DNA of 64,000 nt from Cheilinus undulatus (taxonomy: Eukaryota > Chordata > Actinopteri > Labriformes > Labridae). Positions within the stretch are counted from its first letter, which is position 1. Each line of letters opens with the position of its first letter. The position numbers were made by a program, and so were the translations under genes. The stretch lies in NCBI RefSeq assembly GCF_018320785.1, contig NC_054875.1, positions 30,881,157 to 30,945,156 of the forward strand. The letters are read 5' to 3'. Below, one piece after another: positions 31,249-57,139 of the stretch. Below the pieces are notes generated by a model, which was given only the letters and a program-made list of their open reading frames with translations, did no database searches and was not told the DNA's origin.

Positions 31249-34200
31249 ATGACTTCTTCCGTCTCAGCCTGGCTTTGGAGTGAGAGATTTTGGCTTCCCG
31301 AAAATGTCTCATGGGCGGACCTGGAGAGTCCACCACCTGGTGTGGAGTATCCCCGACTGAAACACATATTCATCGCCTTGCCTTTGGCCGTCGGAGTTTT
31401 TCTCCTAAGACAACTTTTTGAAAGGTAAAATAGACTCTTGTTTTTTTAATGTTCCACAACCTACGTCCTTTACAGTTTGTAACATCTGTCTTGTGTGGCA
31501 CGACGAGGAAAAAAGGCGGATGAAAAAGTGCATAACACAGCAATCCTAGCATATGACTCATGCATGATGAGCACAAACTGCATGGAAGCTATTGAGAGCC
31601 TGCTTTCTGTTTGTAGTCCCATCCTGTGCTCCCAACACAAAATGCAGAGCTAGCACAGTAACAAAGTTAGTTTTAATGAAATCATGCAGATCTACTTAAG
31701 TGAATGCCCTTTGGCTGTAGGTTTTTTATTGATGTAGTGGCACTTACAGTGTTGTTTTTGCTTCATTCTCTTGGTATTCCTTTGGTATTCTTTTGTGGTG
31801 GTGATGCATAAACAACTTCAGACACAGGTTCACCTTGCTGAGCAGTGACACTTTGCAGGCATATTTGGTGCTGGAGTTATAATGGAACTGTTGTGTAATG
31901 ATCACACAACAAGTCATTGGAAACCAAACATTTGTGTCTGGTTTTGGGACTTTAGAAACTTTTCTGTGCAGTGTATCATATACACAAAGCCATCTTTTAC
32001 AGCTTATGCACACAAGTCCCTAACTTTCTCAGCAGTTCTTCCTTTTAGAGTAAAATAACCAATGAGAGGGCAGGCCAAAGTCCAGTCTGTACTTCTGTTC
32101 ATTCAGTCTTTTTTCTAATGTTGGGAAAACTCCCCCAGATTACTAGGTATATAAGATCCAGCCAGAATAAATGACTCTAAGTTTGAGCCTTAACATTGGT
32201 CAACTCAACCAGATTAACCAGATGATCTTGTGACACACATCAGTATTTTGTTTATAGGCGCCCCTTCTGATTTTCTCTGTCTCCCACCCACTCACATGAT
32301 AGGTCATCATGCTGTGTTTAGACTAGGTGCTACATTCCCCAGGATGCCTTCTCTGTCTCCCTATAGGCTCTATTGTACTCTCTATTTCTCACACACATGC
32401 ATGTCAAACAATACTTTGTGTAAAAACTGCTGAAGCTAGCAGTTCATGTCAATAGGGCCAGTTCAGCTAATATTTATCCCATATAGCCCGTGCAAAATGC
32501 TAATCTTTTTCATATGTCTCTCCTTTTCTGAATGTCTCTCTTAATACCACACCATCTATGTGTCCCCTCCCTGCCCTCTCTCTTTTCTGCCTCCGTCTGT
32601 GTGTATACAGGCTAGTGGCCAAGCCCTGTGCCCACATACTTCAGATTCAGGCGGGAGTGCCTCGGCGAGCCCAGTCCAGTGATGTCCTGGAGAGGGTGTA
32701 TCAGTCCAAAGCGGTACATAAGGCCCATGTTTGTGCTGTAGTCCAGTAAATTTTTCTCTGCATGCTGAAATACACTGCCACAAGCATAATGTTACGTTTA
32801 GTAAATATTTATTGTGGTGTGTCATACCTGGTATTGTGGTTTTTCAAGGGAAGACTATGAAAAGCAAATGGATTCTTTTCTTTCTTTCTCTGTAGTGTCC
32901 AGACACCAGGCAACTGGAGGGACTCTCCAAGCAGCTGGATTGGGATGTACGAAAAATACAGAGATGGTTTCGTGTTCGCCGGAACCAAGACAGGCCCAGT
33001 ACGCAGAAAAAGTTCTGCGAGAGCATGTAGGTTCCCGTGTTCATGTGTACCATGTATGAGTGGACATGGATCTGCACTGCAGTGCCTAGAAAGACCTATT
33101 CTTCAATAAGCAAGAGTAGTCTTTAGCACAGGCCGTCTACTGGATTCCGCCCCAAAAAAATTTATAGTATACCCACTCCTGTAGGCACCACTACACCACT
33201 GCTTATGATAATCCATTGCCTTATTCTTCAAGTGCCATTATGAGGTTAAAGTTGTAGATCCAGACAACAATATTTATTTTCTATTATATTTAGTCTACAG
33301 CCCACCAAGTTACATAATAAAACCAAACAAGAAGACAAGTACAGTCAATATCAGCATTCAAACAAACTTGTCCATGACAACAAGTCTACTGTAAGGAGCC
33401 AGGTCATAGAAGAATTGAAGAATTCTGTTGTTTTTGAATGTTGATAAAATTTATTACAATTAAATTTGTGTTACTGAAAACATTCTGGGACACATCTCTT
33501 AGCATGCTAACATGCATGTGTTTCACACAGCCATCTGGGAAACCTTCAATACTAAGTGTTTGGGAAAGGGCAAAGGCTTTGTAAAAAACTTGTGAGTGTG
33601 ATTGGATGAATGTTCTGTCTGTCACATCTTTACAGGCCAATCAGAGCAACAAAACACGTGACGTGGCCGCGACCAAGAAAAAAACTCACTGCTGTTCTTT
33701 GTTCTTCTTGTAACGAAGAAATGTCATCAATGTGAAAACCTGCACTTTAGCAGCATCCACGCTAATCTCTTATGCCATAATTGCGCTGGCCTCTTGTTGC
33801 TGCTTGCTTAAGTCACGACTCCGCCGCTCCTGAAAGTACTGCCCCTCATCACTGATAGGTCCTGTCACTTTCTAACCGGGCCCAAACAGTTCAGAGGGGA
33901 GCTTTGCAAGATGGATTTGCCAGTGGGAAACAAGGAAACGGGCAAATCCATCTGCTTTGCAAGGTTAACTAGTATATTGATTAGCATAAATCTCAAACAA
34001 TTGTTGTGTACAGAAACCGCCTATTGAAATCAAAGCAGACTTAATTTAGCTTTACATAAAGAAAATGTTTTATTTTCCTAATTCAGCTAACATAGTGCCA
34101 TACCAAAACAGCGCATTAGAGTAGAAGCGGATTCTTAATTTGGTTTCCAAGAAAAGAACATTAATTTCTTTCCTTCCTCCTTCATTTGCTTACAGTTTAA

Positions 34201-37200
34201 AGCACTGCTCTACCCAAGAACAGCCAAAATGAACTCTCAGCATCAGAGCAGACTTGGTATGGTATTTCCAGGTGAAGAATAGGATTCCTGTTGTCTCACT
34301 TCTGCTAGCATAATGATTAGCATACAGCTCAAAGCATTGCTGCGTATAGAAACAGCATGTCAGAATAAAAGCAGATTCTTAGTTTTGTTTCTGAAAATAA
34401 CACTTTTCTCCTAATTCTGCTAGCATTTTGTTGTTAGCATGCAATTGAAAGCATCACTGCAACCAAGAACAGCCTAAATTAGCTGGTTGTTTGCCGGGCA
34501 GACTCTTAATCTCAATTTTAGGAAAAAAACTATTTTTTTGTTTTCTAAATTCTGCTAGCATGTTGATTAGCATACAGTTCAAAGAATTACTGAGCCACGG
34601 ATTAGCCTAAATCTTATGTTTACTGTAGACTCTTGATCTTGTTTGTGAAATGCTAAGAAGTGTTTTTTCCTGTTTTCTTTTTTGACTTTCCCTCAGGTGG
34701 CGGTTTACATTTTACCTGGGGATTTTCATGTATGCAATTCGCCATTTATGGGTGGTGAGTTGAATTAGCATACTTTTTTCTCTTTATGAAATATACTGTT
34801 GTTGAATTTAAGTTTTCATGTCTTTAGCTTTCATTGAAAATGAATGAGGCTTCTATATTTTTGTTGATCTAATCAGGGACATGATCATATACACATTTTA
34901 TCTTTTACTGATAGTCACCTTGGATGTGGGATACCCGACATTGTTGGTACAACTATCCATTTCAGGTTAATATTTTCTTTTACTCATTGTATAATCTCAT
35001 TAAATTCCATGTATTTCAGCTATACTGCTCAATGATCTAGTATTAGTAAGCCAAAGGAAATGCATTTAAGTTAAACGTGTTATTCTTGTCTCCCTCCCAA
35101 AGTCTCTGAGCCCTGGACAGTACAACTACTATGTAGCTGAGCTGGCCTTTTATTGGTCTCTGATGTTTTCCCAGTTCACAGACATTAGGCGTAAGGTGAG
35201 TGAGCAACACCAAGACTATTGTGCAGCTTCTCTGTGGCCCGTTTGAACACTCCATACCCTTTAATATCACAATCGTTTTGCCAGTTTTGAGTGTTCATGG
35301 TATGCCATTTTCTTTTTTTTTTTGTCTTTCTTATTTACGGATGGTTGTTTGGCAGCTAAACCTAAGCACCTCTGTACATTTGAGGTGTATTTACGTTAGC
35401 TTTTTATTGCTTTGTGCTTCAGTAAAACAGGTCAGACAATTAAATGCTGCTCTACAACTTCTTTATAGTTTCATGTAAAGTTGTTATTCAGGTACAAGCC
35501 TTTCATATGGTGTTGTAGCTGAATGACTTGATGAATGTACAAAGACCAGCAATGATTTTTTCTCCATTACTCACTCCATAAGCTACAGGTGTTTTCTTTA
35601 AATACCAAGCTTGTAATTTTAACCCCATTTTAACCTACTCTCTCCTTCTGTCATCTCTCTTCATTTCACTGATGACAGGATTTCTTCATCATGCTTGTCC
35701 ACCACCTGGCCACCATCATGCTCATCACATTCTCCTACGCTAACAACATGTTAAGAGCTGGCACTCTGGTTATGTGTGTGCATGATTTATCTGACATCTT
35801 TCTTGAGGTAAAGACTTTTATGACACATGTTGCAAAACAAAAACTTGTGCAGGTTTATATTTGCTAAGCTACATATAGTTGTGCAAAATGTCAGGTAGGC
35901 AAACACAGCTGGGAGCATATAAGAATGGAAATATTCTGTGCTGTTAGCTCCTTGTATTACCTGTCTGACAGAGCACACGTCTCTCATTAGCATCTCTCTG
36001 ACACAGTGTCATTGACATGTACTGGAAGCAGCTTCAATTACTTGAACTACCTGTCTGACAGAAAAAACTATGCCATTCTTATTAGCATTGCTGTGACTAG
36101 ATGACATTGAAATGTAGTAGTACAAGTTTAGGCTAATAAAAGTTCTTGTGCACTCATTTTAATACATTGCAGCCTCATTTAAGTAGAAATATGTCATGAC
36201 TAAGACAGAGATTGTGATGTAATATTTTAGCACTGTGAATGATTAATTTCTTATTTGTTCCCAAAGGCTGCAAAGCTGGCCAACTATGCCAAGTACCAGA
36301 GGCTATGTGATGGCCTGTTTGTGGTGTTCAGCATAAGTTTTTTCCTCACCCGGCTGGTCATCTACCCTTTCTGGTGAGACATATTAGAGCTTATTTATAT
36401 GCAGTATGTTCTATTACACACTGTGCAAGTGTGCCCATTTTTGATTAACAAAAGATGACATTTTAAAGCGATTGAGTGACACATTAAGCTTAGTGTGTGT
36501 GTATTTCTTGCAGGATTGTTCACAGTGTTCTGTTTGAGAGTTGGGAAATCATTGGGCCATACCAAGCCTGGTGGCTCCTCAATGGTCTGCTGCTAGTGCT
36601 GCAGGTTCTTCACATAATCTGGTTCTACCTCGTCGCTCGCATCGCCATCAAAGCCATATTCAAGGGAAAGGTCAGTATAGAAGCATTTGGGAAAGCCAGA
36701 CTTTCACAAGTTCTTGATGATTGGACAAAGGTTCTGTCTGTCACTTTCATTACGGGTCATCAGAACAACAAGACAAAATGAGGTTGTACACATGCACAAC
36801 TCCAGTACAAACACTGCCGTAGTATATGAACAGTGGAACATGGTGTGGATAAAACTTACAGCAAGGCCAGTTGGAAGTAGAGCTAAAAAAATCCACTCTG
36901 CCAAGAGAAGCGTTCAGTGAAGCTCTTTGCTCTTGTTTTGGTAAAGAAATGTGGCATTATTCCGATAACAATGCCAGTTTTTCCACAGCTACATCAGAGT
37001 TAATCACTTACATACACCAGCTTACAGTACAACTTAATCTCACCTAAAACAATTTCAAAACCATGTTGAAGCAGGTATGGAGAAGAGCAAAAACATCTTT
37101 TCCATCATGCAAGCTTTCATTGCAGTTTTTGGCTCTTTATTTTACAAAGAAGTGTGTAATATTTCTGGTGAAACTGCTGCTGTATTAAAGCTACAGCCAA

Positions 37201-39300
37201 TCTAACTGCTAGTCCGCTGGCCCATTACTGCCAGCTTTGAGCACAACTTAACTCTGCTTATAGCTACAGCCTCATTCTTCTCAAACAACATTGATTGGCT
37301 GGGAGCAGTTGGCCTAATGGTTTAAGGCACGCCCCATGTACGCGGGTTTGAATCCGGCCTGTGGCCCTTTCCTGCATGCCTCTGCCCACTCTCTCATTCC
37401 TGTTTCTGACTCTATCCACTGTCGTCCTCTATCAGTAAAGGCACAAAAAGTCCAAAATAAATCTTAAAAAAAATAAAACATTGATTGGATAGACCCCTTT
37501 TTGGGTCTGGCACAACCATTACGGATTGGTGTTTCATAAGATGTATTTGCCCTCTTGACAGACATGGATTCTGGCAAATCATTCTGCTTTGGAAGGTTAT
37601 TTCTTGAGACAAGAGCAAAGAAATGCACTGAAAGCTTTTCTTTCCATAAAAAGATGTTTTAGCTCTTCTTCCCAGTGTTAAATTTGCCATCTAAAACTGG
37701 GACTAATAATGCTCATTGACTACCATTTTTCAAGAGGAAGATGACTAAGAATAGAAAAAAATAGATTTTGATAATAAAAAGTCTGACAAATAGTATGTTC
37801 AATTTTCGTCAAGGAAGCCAAAAAGGGTAACCTTGCAAAGGATGGATACGCCCGTTTTCTTGTTTTTCACAGGTGAATCCATCTTGCAAAGCTCCCATCT
37901 GAACTGTTTGGGCCTGGTTAGAAAGTGACAGGACCAATCAGCGACAAGGGGCAGCACTTTCAGGTGCAGCAGAGTTGTGACGTAAACAAGCAGCAAGAGC
38001 TGGTGCAGTTATGGAGGAAGAGATTAGCGTGGATGCTGCTAAAGCATCAGTTTTATCAGGACTTGACAAAATTCATTCGTTAAAAGAAGAACAAATAACA
38101 GCAGTGAGTTGTTTTCTTTTCAACAACGACAAAAGTCGAGTACTTACATGTCTATAGTCGCCATGTTTCACGTTAGTCCTCAGTAGATGCGCAGGCGCAG
38201 TTCAATAGCGGCTACGTCACATTTTGTTCCCCTGATTGGCCCGTAGAGATGTGACAGACAGAGCGTTCATCCAATCACACTCCGAGTTTTTTTCAAAGCC
38301 CTGCCTTTTCTCAAACGTTCCCTATTGAAGCTTTCCCAGATGGATGTGTGAAACACATCCATCTGGCGTGTCAGGTTACAAAAAGGGAGTAAAATGTTAG
38401 CACTTAGCTTGGATATAGCTATAGCAGAAGTTTTATCAGAAGGAAACTACATTTCCTTATTTAAAGAAAGGCAAAGAACTATACTGAAAGCTTGTTATGA
38501 CGGCAAAGATGTTTTTGATGTTCTCCTGACCAACTTCATCATGCTGAGCATTAACAATAATAGCAGCTGCCTTGTAAGCTCACATTAGTTTAATGACCGC
38601 TACATCATATGTTTGATCACTCTGATTTGCCTGTAATGAGTGAGAATGACAAAACAATCACCCATTAACCCACTGAGATTTTTTTCAAAGGTTCTGTCTT
38701 TCCCAAACATAGACCGGAGGTGGTTGCTCAGATGGATGTGATATATATCCCATGCAATATGATATGAATTTTGGTCTATCTGGTGCGTGAGGATAATCTT
38801 ACACAACCTGCAGGTTAAACGTCACTTCATCATCCAGTGTATAATCTCCTCCTCCCTGTAAGATTTTGTAAAGATGTGTGTTGTTACCATTCCATGAATC
38901 CCATGGCACAACTTCAGGTTAAAATTTGTGGTTTGGGGGGGTCTTAGATGGATTCATGTTCCTATTTTTGATCAATTTTACCGTATTTGGTGACCCCTTT
39001 TCCATCCAGTGCCATCTGCAGGTCAAAATTGAACACCTTAATGGATGTTACCATCATTATTGTTACCACATCAGCATGTCTGTTCCTTCTTGGGCTTGTT
39101 TTTTCTTTACCCATTATTCCAGTTAATGGTAAAACTTTTCTTTTTTTTTGTAATTCCTTTATCAGGTGTCCAAAGATGACCGTAGTGACATCGAGAGCAG
39201 CTCAGATGATGAGACAAGGACTAAACCTCCCTCTCAGACCCTCATTCCAAAAGACAACAATCACACTGCTAACCTAAATGGAAATACTCATGACCATTGA
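31249..39300 (+). CDS. cers5: ceramide synthase 5 (ten coding exons)
   Basis: Exons: 31249-31424, 32611-32713, 32896-33026, 34697-34754, 34915-34965, 35103-35195, 35679-35807, 36267-36373, 36514-36670, 39166-39300. All phases join to 379 residues; human CERS5 has 392. The start [19 protein letters not shown] and the middle [10 protein letters not shown] match CERS5 better than CERS6. Residues ~70-125 are the Hox-like domain ([19 protein letters not shown]). The TLC/Lag1p domain follows ([12 protein letters not shown], catalytic His212-His213 in MLVHHLAT, then [11 protein letters not shown]). The C terminus carries the acidic serine cluster [13 protein letters not shown], a known CK2 target region in this family. 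The enzyme N-acylates sphinganine with fatty acyl-CoA, mainly C16, in the ER membrane. The ATG at 31249 follows an in-frame TTG-led stretch with no upstream ATG. Introns 3 and 9 are filled with repeats. Confidence 0.96.
33510..33967 (-). mobile_element. hairpin-ended DNA element, copy 1 (inverted)
   Basis: Inverted relative to the element at 37828-38378 and sharing its parts: a terminal hairpin with CCATCTGGGAAA, TGATTGGATGAATGTTCTGT, AGCAGCATCCACGCTAATCT, GGGCCCAAACAGTTCAGA, and the closing hairpin ending TTTGCAAGGTTA. The short protein piece seen in the other copy (EISVDAAK) is also legible on the minus strand. No flanking duplication was found. Located in cers5 intron 3. Confidence 0.65.
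33968..34665 (+). repeat. degenerate tandem array, unit ~115 bp
   Basis: About six diverged units in cers5 intron 3. Each has a CTGCTAGCAT / GATTAGCATACAG start, then CAAAGCATTGCTG-like, AGAAACAGCC-like, CAGATTCTTAATTTTGTTT-like and a C/T-rich end. Best unit starts are near 34302, 34417 and 34552; weaker ones near 33968, 34084 and 34190. Spacing is 106-135 bp. It follows element copy 1 directly. Confidence 0.65.
35950..36120 (+). repeat. ~92-bp tandem duplication
   Basis: TTACCTGTCTGACAGA followed by ATTAGCAT and GACATTGA(C/A)ATGTA occurs at about 35956 and again at about 36048. Two diverged units lie in cers5 intron 7. Confidence 0.5.
36680..37601 (-). mobile_element. hairpin-ended DNA element, diverged copy with SINE insertion
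   Basis: Starts with GGGAAAGCCAGACTTTCACA and GATTGGACAAAGGTTCTGTC, equivalent to the 33540 region. It ends with CAAATCATTCTGCTTTGGAA then GGTTA, equivalent to the closing hairpin of copy 1. The SINE 37299-37476 interrupts it. Both boundaries are approximate. Located in cers5 intron 9. Confidence 0.45.
37299..37476 (+). mobile_element. tRNA-derived SINE with target-site duplication
   Basis: Box A-like TTGGCCTAATGGTTTAAGG and box B-like GGGTTTGAATCC stand at tRNA spacing. The body has TGACTCTATCCACTGTC(G/C)TCCTC and the element ends in TCTTAAAAA. A perfect 12-bp duplication AACATTGATTGG flanks it (37287-37298 and 37477-37488), showing target-primed insertion. A relative lies at 63197. Confidence 0.85.
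37828..38378 (+). mobile_element. hairpin-ended DNA element with 9-bp duplication and helicase-like piece
   Basis: A 551-bp element with symmetric ends TAACCT...AGGTTA and a perfect 9-bp flanking duplication CAAAAAGGG (37819-37827 and 38379-38387). A hairpin lies just inside each end. The right one (38336-38366) has perfect 14-bp arms CCAGATGGATGTGT and a 3-base loop. Inside, from the ATG at 38011, a frame reads [20 protein letters not shown], then [11 protein letters not shown], and meets a GTGAGT that could be a splice donor. The piece resembles the N terminus of RecQ-type helicases found in many copies in fish genomes. The superfamily is not certain. Located in cers5 intron 9. Confidence 0.7.
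38391..38830 (+). mobile_element. helicase-piece element, diverged copy
   Basis: From the ATG at 38394 the frame reads [20 protein letters not shown], then [20 protein letters not shown]. The first part aligns with [20 protein letters not shown] in the neighbouring element; the second looks like the GKDVF...LPTG approach to helicase motif I, with the motif itself lost. Downstream parts (CATTAACCCACTGAG, AGGTTCTGTCTTTCCCAAAC, CTCAGATGGATGTG) match the right end of the family. Confidence 0.55.
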
Positions 39301-45700: not shown

Positions 45701-48596
45701 GATGCTTACTCCCCACATGAGTCATGAGGGGAAAATCTGAGAATCGCTTGTTTCAGCACACATTTTCTGAAAGGTGAAGAAAGAGAGGGGAGAATGGAAT
45801 GCATTTTTCTATTATTTGAGGGGATTGTGGACAGGCCAGGGGCACATATTTTTGTTAGAAAAACCTGAAAAAGTGATTTTTGCGTAATATTTCCCCTGAA
45901 GTTCCCTGTCTTTGTATTTCTCAACGAACAAGCAATTAATCATTCTATATTATAATGAGCACAAAAACACAATTAGCACAAAAGCCTGGTCGATTGAACT
46001 AAGGCTGAACAATTTTGAAAAAAAAAAAAAAATCTTATTGTGATTATTTTGAGTTATAGCAAAATTAGTGTGAATTGTTGTCTTGAAGGGAATGATCATT
46101 TTAAGTCTTTCTCATTTTTAATGACAAAGATATATATAAAACCAATGAAAGTAGGATTTTTGCAAAGAATTCTTGGAAAAAATTGTAGTTGAATGTTTGC
46201 ATGATGTGTAGAGCATCAACATCTCTGCCTCAAAAAATGTACAAAACTGGTATTTTGAAACACATTTCAGGTCAAAGAAATATTTCACCATCTGTGATTT
46301 AAAAAATTTAAATGTTTTTAGTTGTGTTTTGATGATGCATGCTGTTCAGGATTCCTAGTGAAGTTTTTTGCTCATGTTTCTGATGGGTGGTTGTTGTTGA
46401 TGTTAGACACATTCGCACCACAGGTGAAGTTATCTACCAAGTTAGGGTTCTTATCTGTGACTTTAGGTGCTCCATCAGTATGAATTACCTTGCTATGAGG
46501 TTGACTCTCTTGTTTTGTTCTTGCCAGAGGAGACCAGCCTTACCACAGATTTTCAAAAGTTATTGCAGCTGTCATATTGTGAAATATCTAACACTTGCAA
46601 AAGTGTTTTTATGTAGTGTGAACTGATAAAGACACTTTCAACAGGTTAAATATAACTCTATATGAGTTTAATTAACATTGAATGTTTTTCTGTGTTTTTA
46701 AATGTATAGTGGTGTGACTTTACTTGAGCAACCTGGTTGGAGATCTATTCTCTTGTTTTTGCCACTAAGAAAAGATCATACGTAACTGTACAGCTCCTTA
46801 GTAGCTACCTAGTTACTACCAGAGTTCTGCACTTTTACTTGAGTACAATAGTTGCACACTTTTTCCACCTCTGCCTCTGGGTTAGCCAATCAGATTTAGG
46901 GGTGATCACTGACATGTCTTCAACTTGTATTGATATAAGGTATTGGTGTCACAACAACTCCACAAGAACCAAAGTATCTGTACACTTAGATTTCTATCAT
47001 GACTTACACTAGCTCCCGTGACAGCCTCATAGTTGGAACAAGCCTCTCTGCTTTCTCCTCCGTCAAATTTTTTGTTCTATATAGATTGAGCCCCTCCATC
47101 TCACCAAGGCTTGTAATGACATAGTTCAGTGCCACACAGTCCTGAAGGCTTAGGTCTCCATAGCTGATACCAATGCGTGCTGAGGGACTGATGATATCTT
47201 TCACCAAACTGTCACTTTGAGCCTGATGCAGCAGATGGAAGCAACGGTAGTGCTCGTCTGTGTGCCATCCCTGAAATGTCACCTCTGAGCTGCTTTTGAA
47301 CCAGTTTTTGAAACTCAGGATCTGATCTGAGTTAAATTTGCCGAGCAGGGACTCCAGAGATCTGCGCTGAGTTGGCTCTGACAGCGCTGACAAGAACATA
47401 CCTAGAAAGTTAGAGCCTTTGTGCTTTTCTAACATCTCTTCCACACCCTCAGATGTTGACTTGTCCAAAAAGAAAGACATGGCCAAGAAGAACTGTTGCA
47501 TCAGCTGGGAGCGGAACGAGAAGACAGGTCTGCTTGAAGACTCGCTGTCTACTTGCAAAAAAACACCAACTGCGGTAAGAAACTGCTGTAAACCAAAGGT
47601 ATTCATTTCCTCTTTGTTGCATCTCATATGTTGGTTGAGGGAGCAGTGTGATGCCATCTTGCCGAGGGCCAAAACAAGTTCTCTGTTGCGTTCCTCACTC
47701 AGAGACAGGATCTGAATCAGATGAACTAGGATGTCTGCATACAGCTGAGATATGGTGTCTGGAAGTTTTGTGGCAGCATCCATCAGAGATTTGTACATGG
47801 AACAAACCATCCAACAAAATTTTGGAGTGGTAGCAATATCATAAAAGCCTAGTGTTGTCTCCATGTGCTGCAGAGCTTTGTTGGCAGCACCCGAGTCAGG
47901 GAAGAACCCTTTAATGTAGGCCTCTCGTTGTGGCTTCAGAAACCCCAACACATCCACTCGAGTACCACCCAAAAACTCAAGATGTTCTGTTGCTCTTGTA
48001 GCCACCACAAAGGCAGCTCCTTTCAACAAGGATCCATGAAGCAAGCTAGCCACCAAGCAGGACAGTGAGACCTCCTGGGAAGGGTTAGAGCATAAGGTTT
48101 GGGTGGAGGGGTCCAGGCTCTGTTTGAAATAATCCAGATCATCAAAAACAAACAACACATCCTGAGGATTCTGCAGGACTGTGGAAAATGACTCATGCTT
48201 GATGAGACCATGATGGTGCAACAAAAATGTCTCCAAGGACAGCAGTTGGTCAGTGTCATTCAACTCTCTGAATCGGAAGTGGAAAACAGCAGAATAGTGT
48301 TGGAGATGTTGTCCTTTCGCCCAGTCTAATACAAGCTTCTGCATAGTGGTGGTTTTACCTGATCCTTCAGGACCTACCACTAGCACAGTTTTGATTTCAC
48401 CAGACAGAGCAGTCAGGATGGCACTGTTAAGAGGGCATGAGTTGTCTTCCTCACTTTCTTCCTCTGCCTGAGCACCAGAGGTCCGTGGGGATATATATCT
48501 ATCGTGACTTATAACACTTAATGGCACTTCTCCACCAAGGAGTGTAGACATACCCTTTGGCTTCAGGATATGAGTCAACACCACGTTTTTGTCCAT
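42764..48596 (-). CDS. NACHT-LRR (NLR) receptor without N-terminal effector domain
   Basis: Coding exons: 47008-48596, 44326-44487, 44044-44217, 43773-43946, 43490-43663, 43214-43387, 42957-43124, 42764-42833. All phases join to 894 residues. Exon 1 holds the NACHT ATPase: Walker A GPEGSGKTT (residues 75-83), Walker B VLFVFDDLD, then the winged-helix region. Six exons of 162-174 nt follow, each one ribonuclease-inhibitor-type leucine-rich unit (for example LCVLDLRSNEIEDQGLMKLC), and a short last exon. This layout matches vertebrate NLRP/NLRC3-type genes. Only about 70 residues precede Walker A, so there is no CARD, PYD or full FISNA domain, and no B30.2 domain at the end. NLRs are cytosolic sensors of innate immunity. 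The ATG at 48596 lies just inside the exon (acceptor CTACAACAG). Which NLR subfamily it belongs to is not clear. Confidence 0.88.
44563..44741. mobile_element. hAT MITE in NLR intron 1
   Basis: Starts CAGTGTTTCCCTGAGCC, ends CAGAAAACCACT, and has the inner segments AAAGAGACTATTTTGAAT and GACATAAATATGGTGTCCC seen in the 41814 copy. The flanking duplication is not clear. Confidence 0.5.
45215..46110. repeat. diverged MITE-like sequence in NLR intron 1
   Basis: CTGAACAATTTGGGAAAATA with ATTGTGA... at 45217 and CTGAACAATTTTGAAAAAAA with TTATTGTGATTATTTTG at 46010 are two copies of a widespread fish repeat start. The stretch between them is unique or too diverged to place. Exact limits are unknown. 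Confidence 0.35.
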
Positions 48597-48795
48597 AGTG
48601 CAAATCTCTGTTGTAGAGAAAACATACAACATAATGCAATTAGAAGTCTTCAGACTACTTTTTATTCATACCTGCAAGTAAATAACGGTGTAACAAACTC
48701 TTAACTTGCAAGCAGACTTCCCTGCACAACTTATCACCCTGAAGTAACAGTAGAGCAGAATTTCGTTAAAACACGGAAGAGGAAAGTGTAGTTAC

Positions 48796-55540: not shown

Positions 55541-57139
55541 AAACTTAGCACAAAAAGTAAGGAAATTTGTGGTTGGTAGATTATTTCTTTGTTGTAACCA
55601 TACTTCTTGGTAATAAATCTTATACCATTGGAAAGCCTGTTTATTACCCTTTTAAATGATGATGCATTTGTAAGGATCATGCATTTGTGGGATGAGCAGG
55701 AGAGCTGAGTATGTGGGTTGGGCCCATTAAAAATTTGCCAAATCTTCCCTGCCAATGCCAAACAGCTGATTCTGCCATTGACTTGTGTGGTGAATTGGAT
55801 GATTGAAGTTTGAAGAAACAAGACATTTTGGCAATTTAACAATTTATTCATTTAACAAACAGGAGCCTCAGTAGCGTGTAGAAGAACAATACACAGCCAC
55901 AACAGCCTGGCACCTCCTCATGCTGGCCACCAGCCTGGTCACACACTGCTGTGGGATGGCATCCCATTCTTCAACCAGCATTTGTTCCAAGTCAGCCAAC
56001 GCGGTTGTGTTGGTCACTCTGGCACCAACAGCACGCCCAAGCTGATCCCACAATTGTTCAATGGGGTTGAGGTCAGGACTGCTGGCAGGCCATTCCACCC
56101 TCTCCACTCCCAGACTCTGGAAGTAGTCTCTGATAAACCATGCTCTGTGGGGGCGAGTGTTGTCATCTTGGAGGATAGTTTGGTCCCAGACTGTGGAGAT
56201 ATGGGATTGCCACTGGTTGCAGAATCTCATCTAGATATCTCTCAGATTGCCTCCAGTGATGGCAAGCCTCGTTTTTCCAGTGAGGGAGATGCCACCCCAC
56301 ACCAACACATTGCCTTCACCAAAAGATGTTACTCTATCGGTGCAGCAATCAGCATAGCCTTCTCCACATCTTCTCCACGCTTTGACCCTATGATGCAACT
56401 GCCATAGGCAGAATCTGGACTCATCGCTGAACATAATGTTCCTCTACATGTTCAGGTTCCAGTGCACGTGTTGCCGACACCAGCGCAAACAGGCCTGATG
56501 GTGAAGGGCAGTCATGGCAGGCCTCCTGGCAGCCCTATGAGACCAGAGATTGGCAGCGTGCAGTCTGTTCTGGGCTGTCTGGGCAAAAAGCCATCGGCCA
56601 TATCGTCCTGCAAACCTTGACTGCAAATCTGTAGAAGACAGCCTACGGTACCGAAGTGCTGACGGTCTTCTTGGGACGCCCCCGTTATATGGAACTTGAC
56701 CAGTTTGGAGATGGTATTAGAGTTCACTCCAAACAATGCCGCAACTTGGTTTTGCGGACCACCAGCTTGAAGTTGCCCTATCGCAAGGACCCTGTCCAGA
56801 TCAGTCAAACGTGGCATGCCGATTCTTGGAGCAGACACCTACTGACCACTGTAGCCCATGGTCACCTGGGTGTACCAGAAGCTCAAAACAAGATTTAATA
56901 GCAACAGCAAAATAAGCTGTTTGGCAGTGGAGAGAAGATTTGGCAAATTTTTCATGGGCGCAGCCCACATACTCAGCTCTGCTGCTCATCTCACAAATGC
57001 ATGTTCCTTACAAATGCATCATCATTTAAAAGGGAAATAAACAGGCTTTCTAGCGGTATAGGATTTATTGCCAAGAAGCATTGCTACAACAAAAAAAGAT
57101 CTACCAACCACAAATTTCCGTACTTTTTTTGCTAAGTTA
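55541..57139 (-). mobile_element. Tc1-type transposon with long inverted repeats
   Basis: The ends are inverted repeats of about 235 bp (55541-55776 and 56903-57139), roughly 90% alike by eye. They start AACTTAGCACAAAAAGTAAG and, on the other strand, AACTTAGCAAAAAAAGTACG. TA bases flank each end, though the exact duplicated TA cannot be fixed. A single transposase gene on the minus strand fills the centre. The long, well-matched repeats suggest a fairly recent insertion. Confidence 0.88.
55868..56838 (-). pseudogene. broken DD34E Tc1 transposase
   Basis: The N-terminal part reads MPRLTDLDRVLAIGQLQAGG with VAALFGVNSNTISKLV, a helix-turn-helix of the Tc1 kind. The catalytic part reads FSDESRF (first Asp), LQDDNTRPH (second Asp) and SSPDLNPIEQLWDQLG (Glu), with exactly 34 residues between the second Asp and the Glu, so DD34E. 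The first part is in a different frame from the rest, and two in-frame stops (at 56444 and 56231) split the remainder. The copy therefore cannot make an active enzyme as it stands. Confidence 0.85.

Follow-up and report, generated by a model that had tools for sequence, protein, structure and literature searches.

A probable non-autonomous AcademH-type transposon in the last intron of a teleost ceramide synthase gene

Element A, a 551-bp DNA transposon copy inserted in a ceramide synthase gene of a teleost, where it occupies part of the last intron, is probably an internally deleted, non-autonomous cut-and-paste element of the AcademH type. It was analyzed within a 64-kb stretch of genomic DNA, referred to here as the window. 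Both ends of A are present, a perfect 9-bp target duplication surrounds it, and a hairpin lies just inside each end. Counting A, the window holds at least four related copies and one further scrap, with relatives B, C, and D and scrap E all located no more than 5 kb from A. A short internal frame likely corresponds to the N-terminus of a RecQ-like helicase, as judged from sequence comparison. A is a genuine genome parasite of a fairly ordinary sort. If it is of the AcademH type, an unclassified miniature element of fish would be tied to a known helicase-carrying lineage, and its copies could be annotated.

Boundaries and terminal hairpins of element A

A sequence-only reading of this DNA had described a DNA transposon copy with ends TAACCT and AGGTTA, a perfect 9-bp duplication, and hairpins inside both ends, all of which are borne out in A (Table 1). 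The duplication, CAAAAAGGG, is exactly 9 bp long, and the adjoining bases differ on either side. The Tc1 (TA), Kolobok (TTAA), and typical hAT (8 bp) duplications are a misfit to this length, as had been noted. Among the 12 TAACCT...AGGTTA pairs spaced 100-3000 bp apart in the window, A alone has matching flanking 9-mers. The flanking 9-mers of the remaining 11 pairs agree at 1-4 of 9 positions, and 60 Markov shuffles gave no pair with matching 9-mers. When the count is widened to every 6-bp inverted end that has a perfect 9-bp repeat beside it (100-1500 bp spacing), three places occur in the window, one of which is poly-A, compared with a mean of 0.32 per shuffle. Because such a find is no proof alone, the relatives with a shared terminus outweigh this statistic. 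The left terminus falls at the identical base in all three copies that keep it (A, B, and C), and their flanks differ.

The length of the duplication rests on one copy because both ends are kept in A only. The sequence-only reading had proposed that other copies be checked for a repeated 9-bp duplication. No copy displays a different length, but the duplication is visible only in A.

Table 1. Positions of element A, its parts, and its relatives in the window.
Feature	Positions	Strand	Basis
Element A, 551-bp non-autonomous DNA transposon, both ends present	37828..38378	+	Ends, duplication, relatives
Left terminal inverted repeat, TAACCT	37828..37833	+	Terminus common to A, B, and C
Right terminal inverted repeat, AGGTTA	38373..38378	+	End sequence of A
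Target duplication, left copy, 9 bp, CAAAAAGGG	37819..37827	.	Perfect repeat
Target duplication, right copy, 9 bp, CAAAAAGGG	38379..38387	.	Perfect repeat
Left subterminal hairpin, GATGGAT/ATCCATC arms	37833..37889	+	DNA fold z -2.96
Right subterminal hairpin, 14-bp perfect arms, loop of 3	38336..38366	+	DNA fold z -6.32
48-codon frame plus stop, read as putative start of a RecQ-like helicase gene	38011..38157	+	Relatives' frames, profile comparison
Copy B	33512..33967	-	82-84% identity to A
Older relative C, split by a SINE-like insert	36671..37599	-	A/B profile matches; left end TAACCTTCCAAAGCAGA at 37599
Older relative D	38388 to ~38798	+	A/B profile match; right limit by eye
Scrap E of helicase-like frame, KDVLALLP across a frame change	37600..37675	+	Peptide, direct repeats

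GATGGAT and its complement are the building blocks of both hairpins of A. The right hairpin, whose arms (38336-38349 and 38353-38366) pair at 14 of 14 positions, has a DNA folding energy of -15.3 kcal/mol (z -6.3) that none of 200 shuffles equalled. The left hairpin folds at -11.1 kcal/mol (z -3.0; equalled by 2 of 200 shuffles) and is stronger in copy B (-16.3, z -4.96). The right hairpin of B has decayed (z -1.9, 10 of 200 shuffles equal), and none was seen in D by DNA fold (z -0.6, 53 of 200 shuffles equal). Additionally, when the ends of A are compared with each other, an imperfect inverted similarity extends over about 80 bp and takes in the hairpins; it scores 42, or 37 without the outer 25 bp, and neither score was reached in 500 shuffles. 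The end-to-end similarity of B is weaker than that of A (3 of 500 shuffles). A GTGACGTA box is present at the left and right ends of A, and such boxes may serve as transposase sites or as parts of a promoter.

Searches outside the window returned no external copies of the element among phage records, and none by pattern in viral contigs or prokaryote genomes. Protein queries gave 14 and 48 pattern matches in viral contigs, with 0 confirmed. A hairpin-pattern match in one prokaryote contig (L003) was rejected as a short bacterial hairpin with no TAACCT in the 181 bases examined.

Relatives and genomic setting

Copy B was recovered by a search within the window as two BLASTN pieces that are 82.5% and 84.3% identical to A. 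It starts with TAACCTTGCAAAG, as A does, and about 85 bp of A's middle is missing. No duplication is visible around B, whose right end has decayed or been lost. A profile of A and B matches three pieces of C, 37599-37507 (E 1.9e-7), which carries the terminal TAACCTT, 37250-37117 (E 4.2e-5), and 37021-36664 (E 1.1e-14). Their strand and order suggest that the three pieces are one element, of which the right end is missing. C also holds two helicase-like scraps, at 37142-37047 and 37013-36872. A SINE-like insert at 37299-37476, which we presume to be tRNA-derived, splits C and has the 12-bp repeat AACATTGATTGG on both sides; ARAGORN called no tRNA in it. At the DNA level, the A/B profile matches scrap E only below threshold (E 0.16).

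The second copy that the sequence-only reading had placed at 38394 is real at the DNA level but is part of a separate older relative, D, which matches the A/B profile at 38403-38744 (E 8.4e-24). The left end of D was looked for and not found. As regards a possible nesting of A in D, the joined flanks of A align to C across the junction, whereas their alignment to A and B is confined to the downstream side. The part upstream of the junction is at chance level: of 300 shuffles, 265 did at least as well against A, 108 against B, and 112 against C.

The host gene is recognizable from two exons, 36267-36374 and 36515-36670, that match the TLC domain (Pfam E 6.6e-8 and 1.3e-4, the second below the Pfam cut-off) and, among PDB sequences, ceramide synthase 6 (E 4.8e-15). 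Its last intron runs from the GT at 36671 through 39165 (2495 bp), and C, E, A, and D occupy about four fifths of it, with the right limit of D set by eye. The splice donor at 36671 directly adjoins the decayed transposon sequence of C, so the intron now starts inside this relative. The C piece 37021-36664 reaches 7 bases past the intron boundary and into the exon, an overrun that is probably due to chance.

Elsewhere in the window, an open frame of 553 aa at 47004-48665 contains a NACHT domain (Pfam E 4.3e-29) and is presumably of the expanded fish NLR kind. A DDE_3 match (E 1.6e-7) lies at 55868-56230, within what we take to be decayed Tc1-like transposase pieces (55868-56838). Further open frames appear to be keratin-like; together with the NACHT gene, they are in keeping with a teleost.

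The helicase-like frame

A, B, and D have the helicase-like piece at a matching position, and C has two such pieces. The D frame (38394-38558), which corresponds to that of A, continues to GKDVFDVL and beyond. GTGAGT at 38104 in A was considered as a splice donor and rejected. It is probably coding, because the frame of B reads through it and that of D continues at the aligned place. Thus, the earlier description of the piece as the first exon of a helicase-like gene is doubtful. On the minus strand of A, an ATG followed by GTAAGT lies at 38139-38199, with a TGCGCAGGCGCA box upstream, in a stretch that is absent from B. This may be what remains of a second gene directed inward; however, the candidate (ATGGCGACTATAGACAT followed by GTAAGT, 38164-38139) is found in A only and is not claimed.

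The window was compared with a RecQ N-terminal profile built from four PDB chains (1oyw, 4tmu, 4q47, and 7a8r). Across six frames of the window, the top place for this profile is in D at 38451-38525 (5.7 bits), which outscores the Walker motif of the NACHT gene. Single copies score lower, with no match for A and 0.7 for B. Shuffles of the 2.1-kb cluster, which the sequence-only reading had named beforehand, never reached 5.7 bits (0 of 300), and shuffles of the whole window reached it in 0 of 12 in one run and 11 of 200 in another. In a profile-profile comparison, six cluster pieces, four of them joined across frame changes and all in frames picked by eye outside the shuffle control, score 20.9 against RecQ, compared with at most 13.7 in 300 column shuffles. 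The score against DEAD-box helicases is 14.8, below that for RecQ yet above the column shuffles. A, B, and D by themselves score 19.8 against RecQ (at most 13.8 in 200 shuffles). The hhalign probability for RecQ is 33% in local mode and 3.4% in global mode (score 16.0).

These comparisons also bear on the reading that the helicase likeness arose by chance, in which case A, with its 9-bp duplication, would be an unclassified miniature inverted-repeat element. Searches of the cluster pieces against Pfam, NCBIfam, and PDB sequences, and of PDB with a profile, returned no helicase, and a control piece of 72 residues from the N-terminus of E. coli RecQ was detected (Pfam DEAD, E 2.1e-10). The best match in the PDB profile search was protein A repeats (E 0.026), and piece E gave one sub-threshold Pfam match, DUF5338 (E 0.014). 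Together with the eye-picked frames and the whole-window shuffles that reach the RecQ score, these results suit a chance likeness. However, none of the 300 and 200 column shuffles attained the profile scores, RecQ ranks above DEAD-box, and the best place in the window falls within the cluster, which makes chance an improbable explanation. The earlier proposal of a RecQ-like helicase is thus weakly supported: the likeness shows in the profile-profile comparison but not in the library and PDB searches, and the piece is likely, though not proven to be, a RecQ-like N-terminus.

Class assignment and comparison with known systems

AcademH, the Academ lineage with a helicase, was reportedly described by Kojima in 2020. 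In the portions of the literature consulted, AcademH elements encode a helicase and make 9- or 10-bp duplications, AcademX elements make duplications of 3 or 4 bp, and this difference is related to helicase versus nuclease (PMC10045372). Academ elements are stated to carry a RecQ helicase (PMC3627910) and to occur in zebrafish, medaka, and stickleback (PMC4746887); the sections consulted of two other papers contain nothing decisive for the class of A (PMC10799480; PMC9004415). CAAAAAGGG agrees with the AcademH length in the one copy of one that keeps both ends. The earlier conclusion that the element fits no known class is not supported, as AcademH is described with both a helicase and duplications of 9 or 10 bp (PMC10045372; PMC3627910, each in part). 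A and its relatives fit as non-autonomous elements of the AcademH type, but membership is probable only, because no Academ transposase was seen in these short copies.

In the mechanism proposed for an AcademH-type A, a transposase supplied elsewhere by a full-length relative would recognize the ends of A, that is, TAACCT and the subterminal GATGGAT boxes that are palindromic at both ends. The element would be excised and then joined to a target whose strands are cut 9 bases apart, and gap repair would yield the CAAAAAGGG duplication. A cannot make a helicase because it keeps only the 48-codon N-terminal frame; the helicase of the full-length relative probably helps open or extend the ends. As palindromes at either end, the boxes are testable candidates for the site of action of the transposase or the helicase, and they bear on why AcademH-type elements make long (9-10 bp) duplications.

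The likelihoods given to the rival readings overlap and do not sum to one. It is unlikely that A belongs to an undescribed superfamily or lineage that combines a RecQ-like helicase, a 9-bp stagger, and palindromic subterminal boxes. No transposase was seen in copies A-E, nor a complete helicase, and the likeness to AcademH covers the duplication length and the putative helicase piece, both of which leave room for such a lineage; however, helicase and matching duplication length are already joined in a described one, as the literature above indicates in part. A more specific proposal is rather improbable, namely an undescribed teleost lineage in which long degenerate inverted ends around the GATGGAT palindromes act as both transposase sites and promoters, and in which miniatures keep the helicase start as a small frame.

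A Mutator-like or Merlin-like non-autonomous element, moved by a MULE or Merlin transposase and carrying a helicase piece captured from elsewhere, has little probability. On duplication length alone, a Mutator-like class is possible for A. As far as the parts consulted go, MuDR-type elements make 9-bp duplications (PMC3627910) and Merlin elements make duplications of 8-9 bp (PMC8101967), and the inverted ends, very imperfect in some Merlins, are a further likeness that the longer imperfect inverted similarity at the ends of A suits. However, Merlin ends are given as 5'-GG (PMC8101967), in contrast to the 5'-TA at the left ends of A, B, and C, and helicases go unmentioned for either group in the portions consulted of PMC3627910 and PMC8101967. 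Moreover, copies of differing age share the placement of the helicase-like piece (A, B, and D) or hold it twice (C), which is unlike a single capture.

A KolobokH-type element, a Kolobok with a RecQ helicase, would share that helicase with A, and one is also carried by a red-algal Kolobok, but this reading is very improbable, as the consulted part of PMC9587614 gives Kolobok TTAA 4-bp duplications and 5'-RR ends, against the 9-bp CAAAAAGGG and 5'-TA of A, and reports KolobokH from fungi only.

AcademH thus remains the probable class of A. Unlike AcademH elements, A is without a transposase and its helicase is cut to its start, and the two are likened by description rather than by termini. A shares with AcademH, as described in the parts of the literature cited above, the 9-bp duplication, a piece that is likely RecQ-like helicase, and a host group, the teleosts, from which Academ is known.
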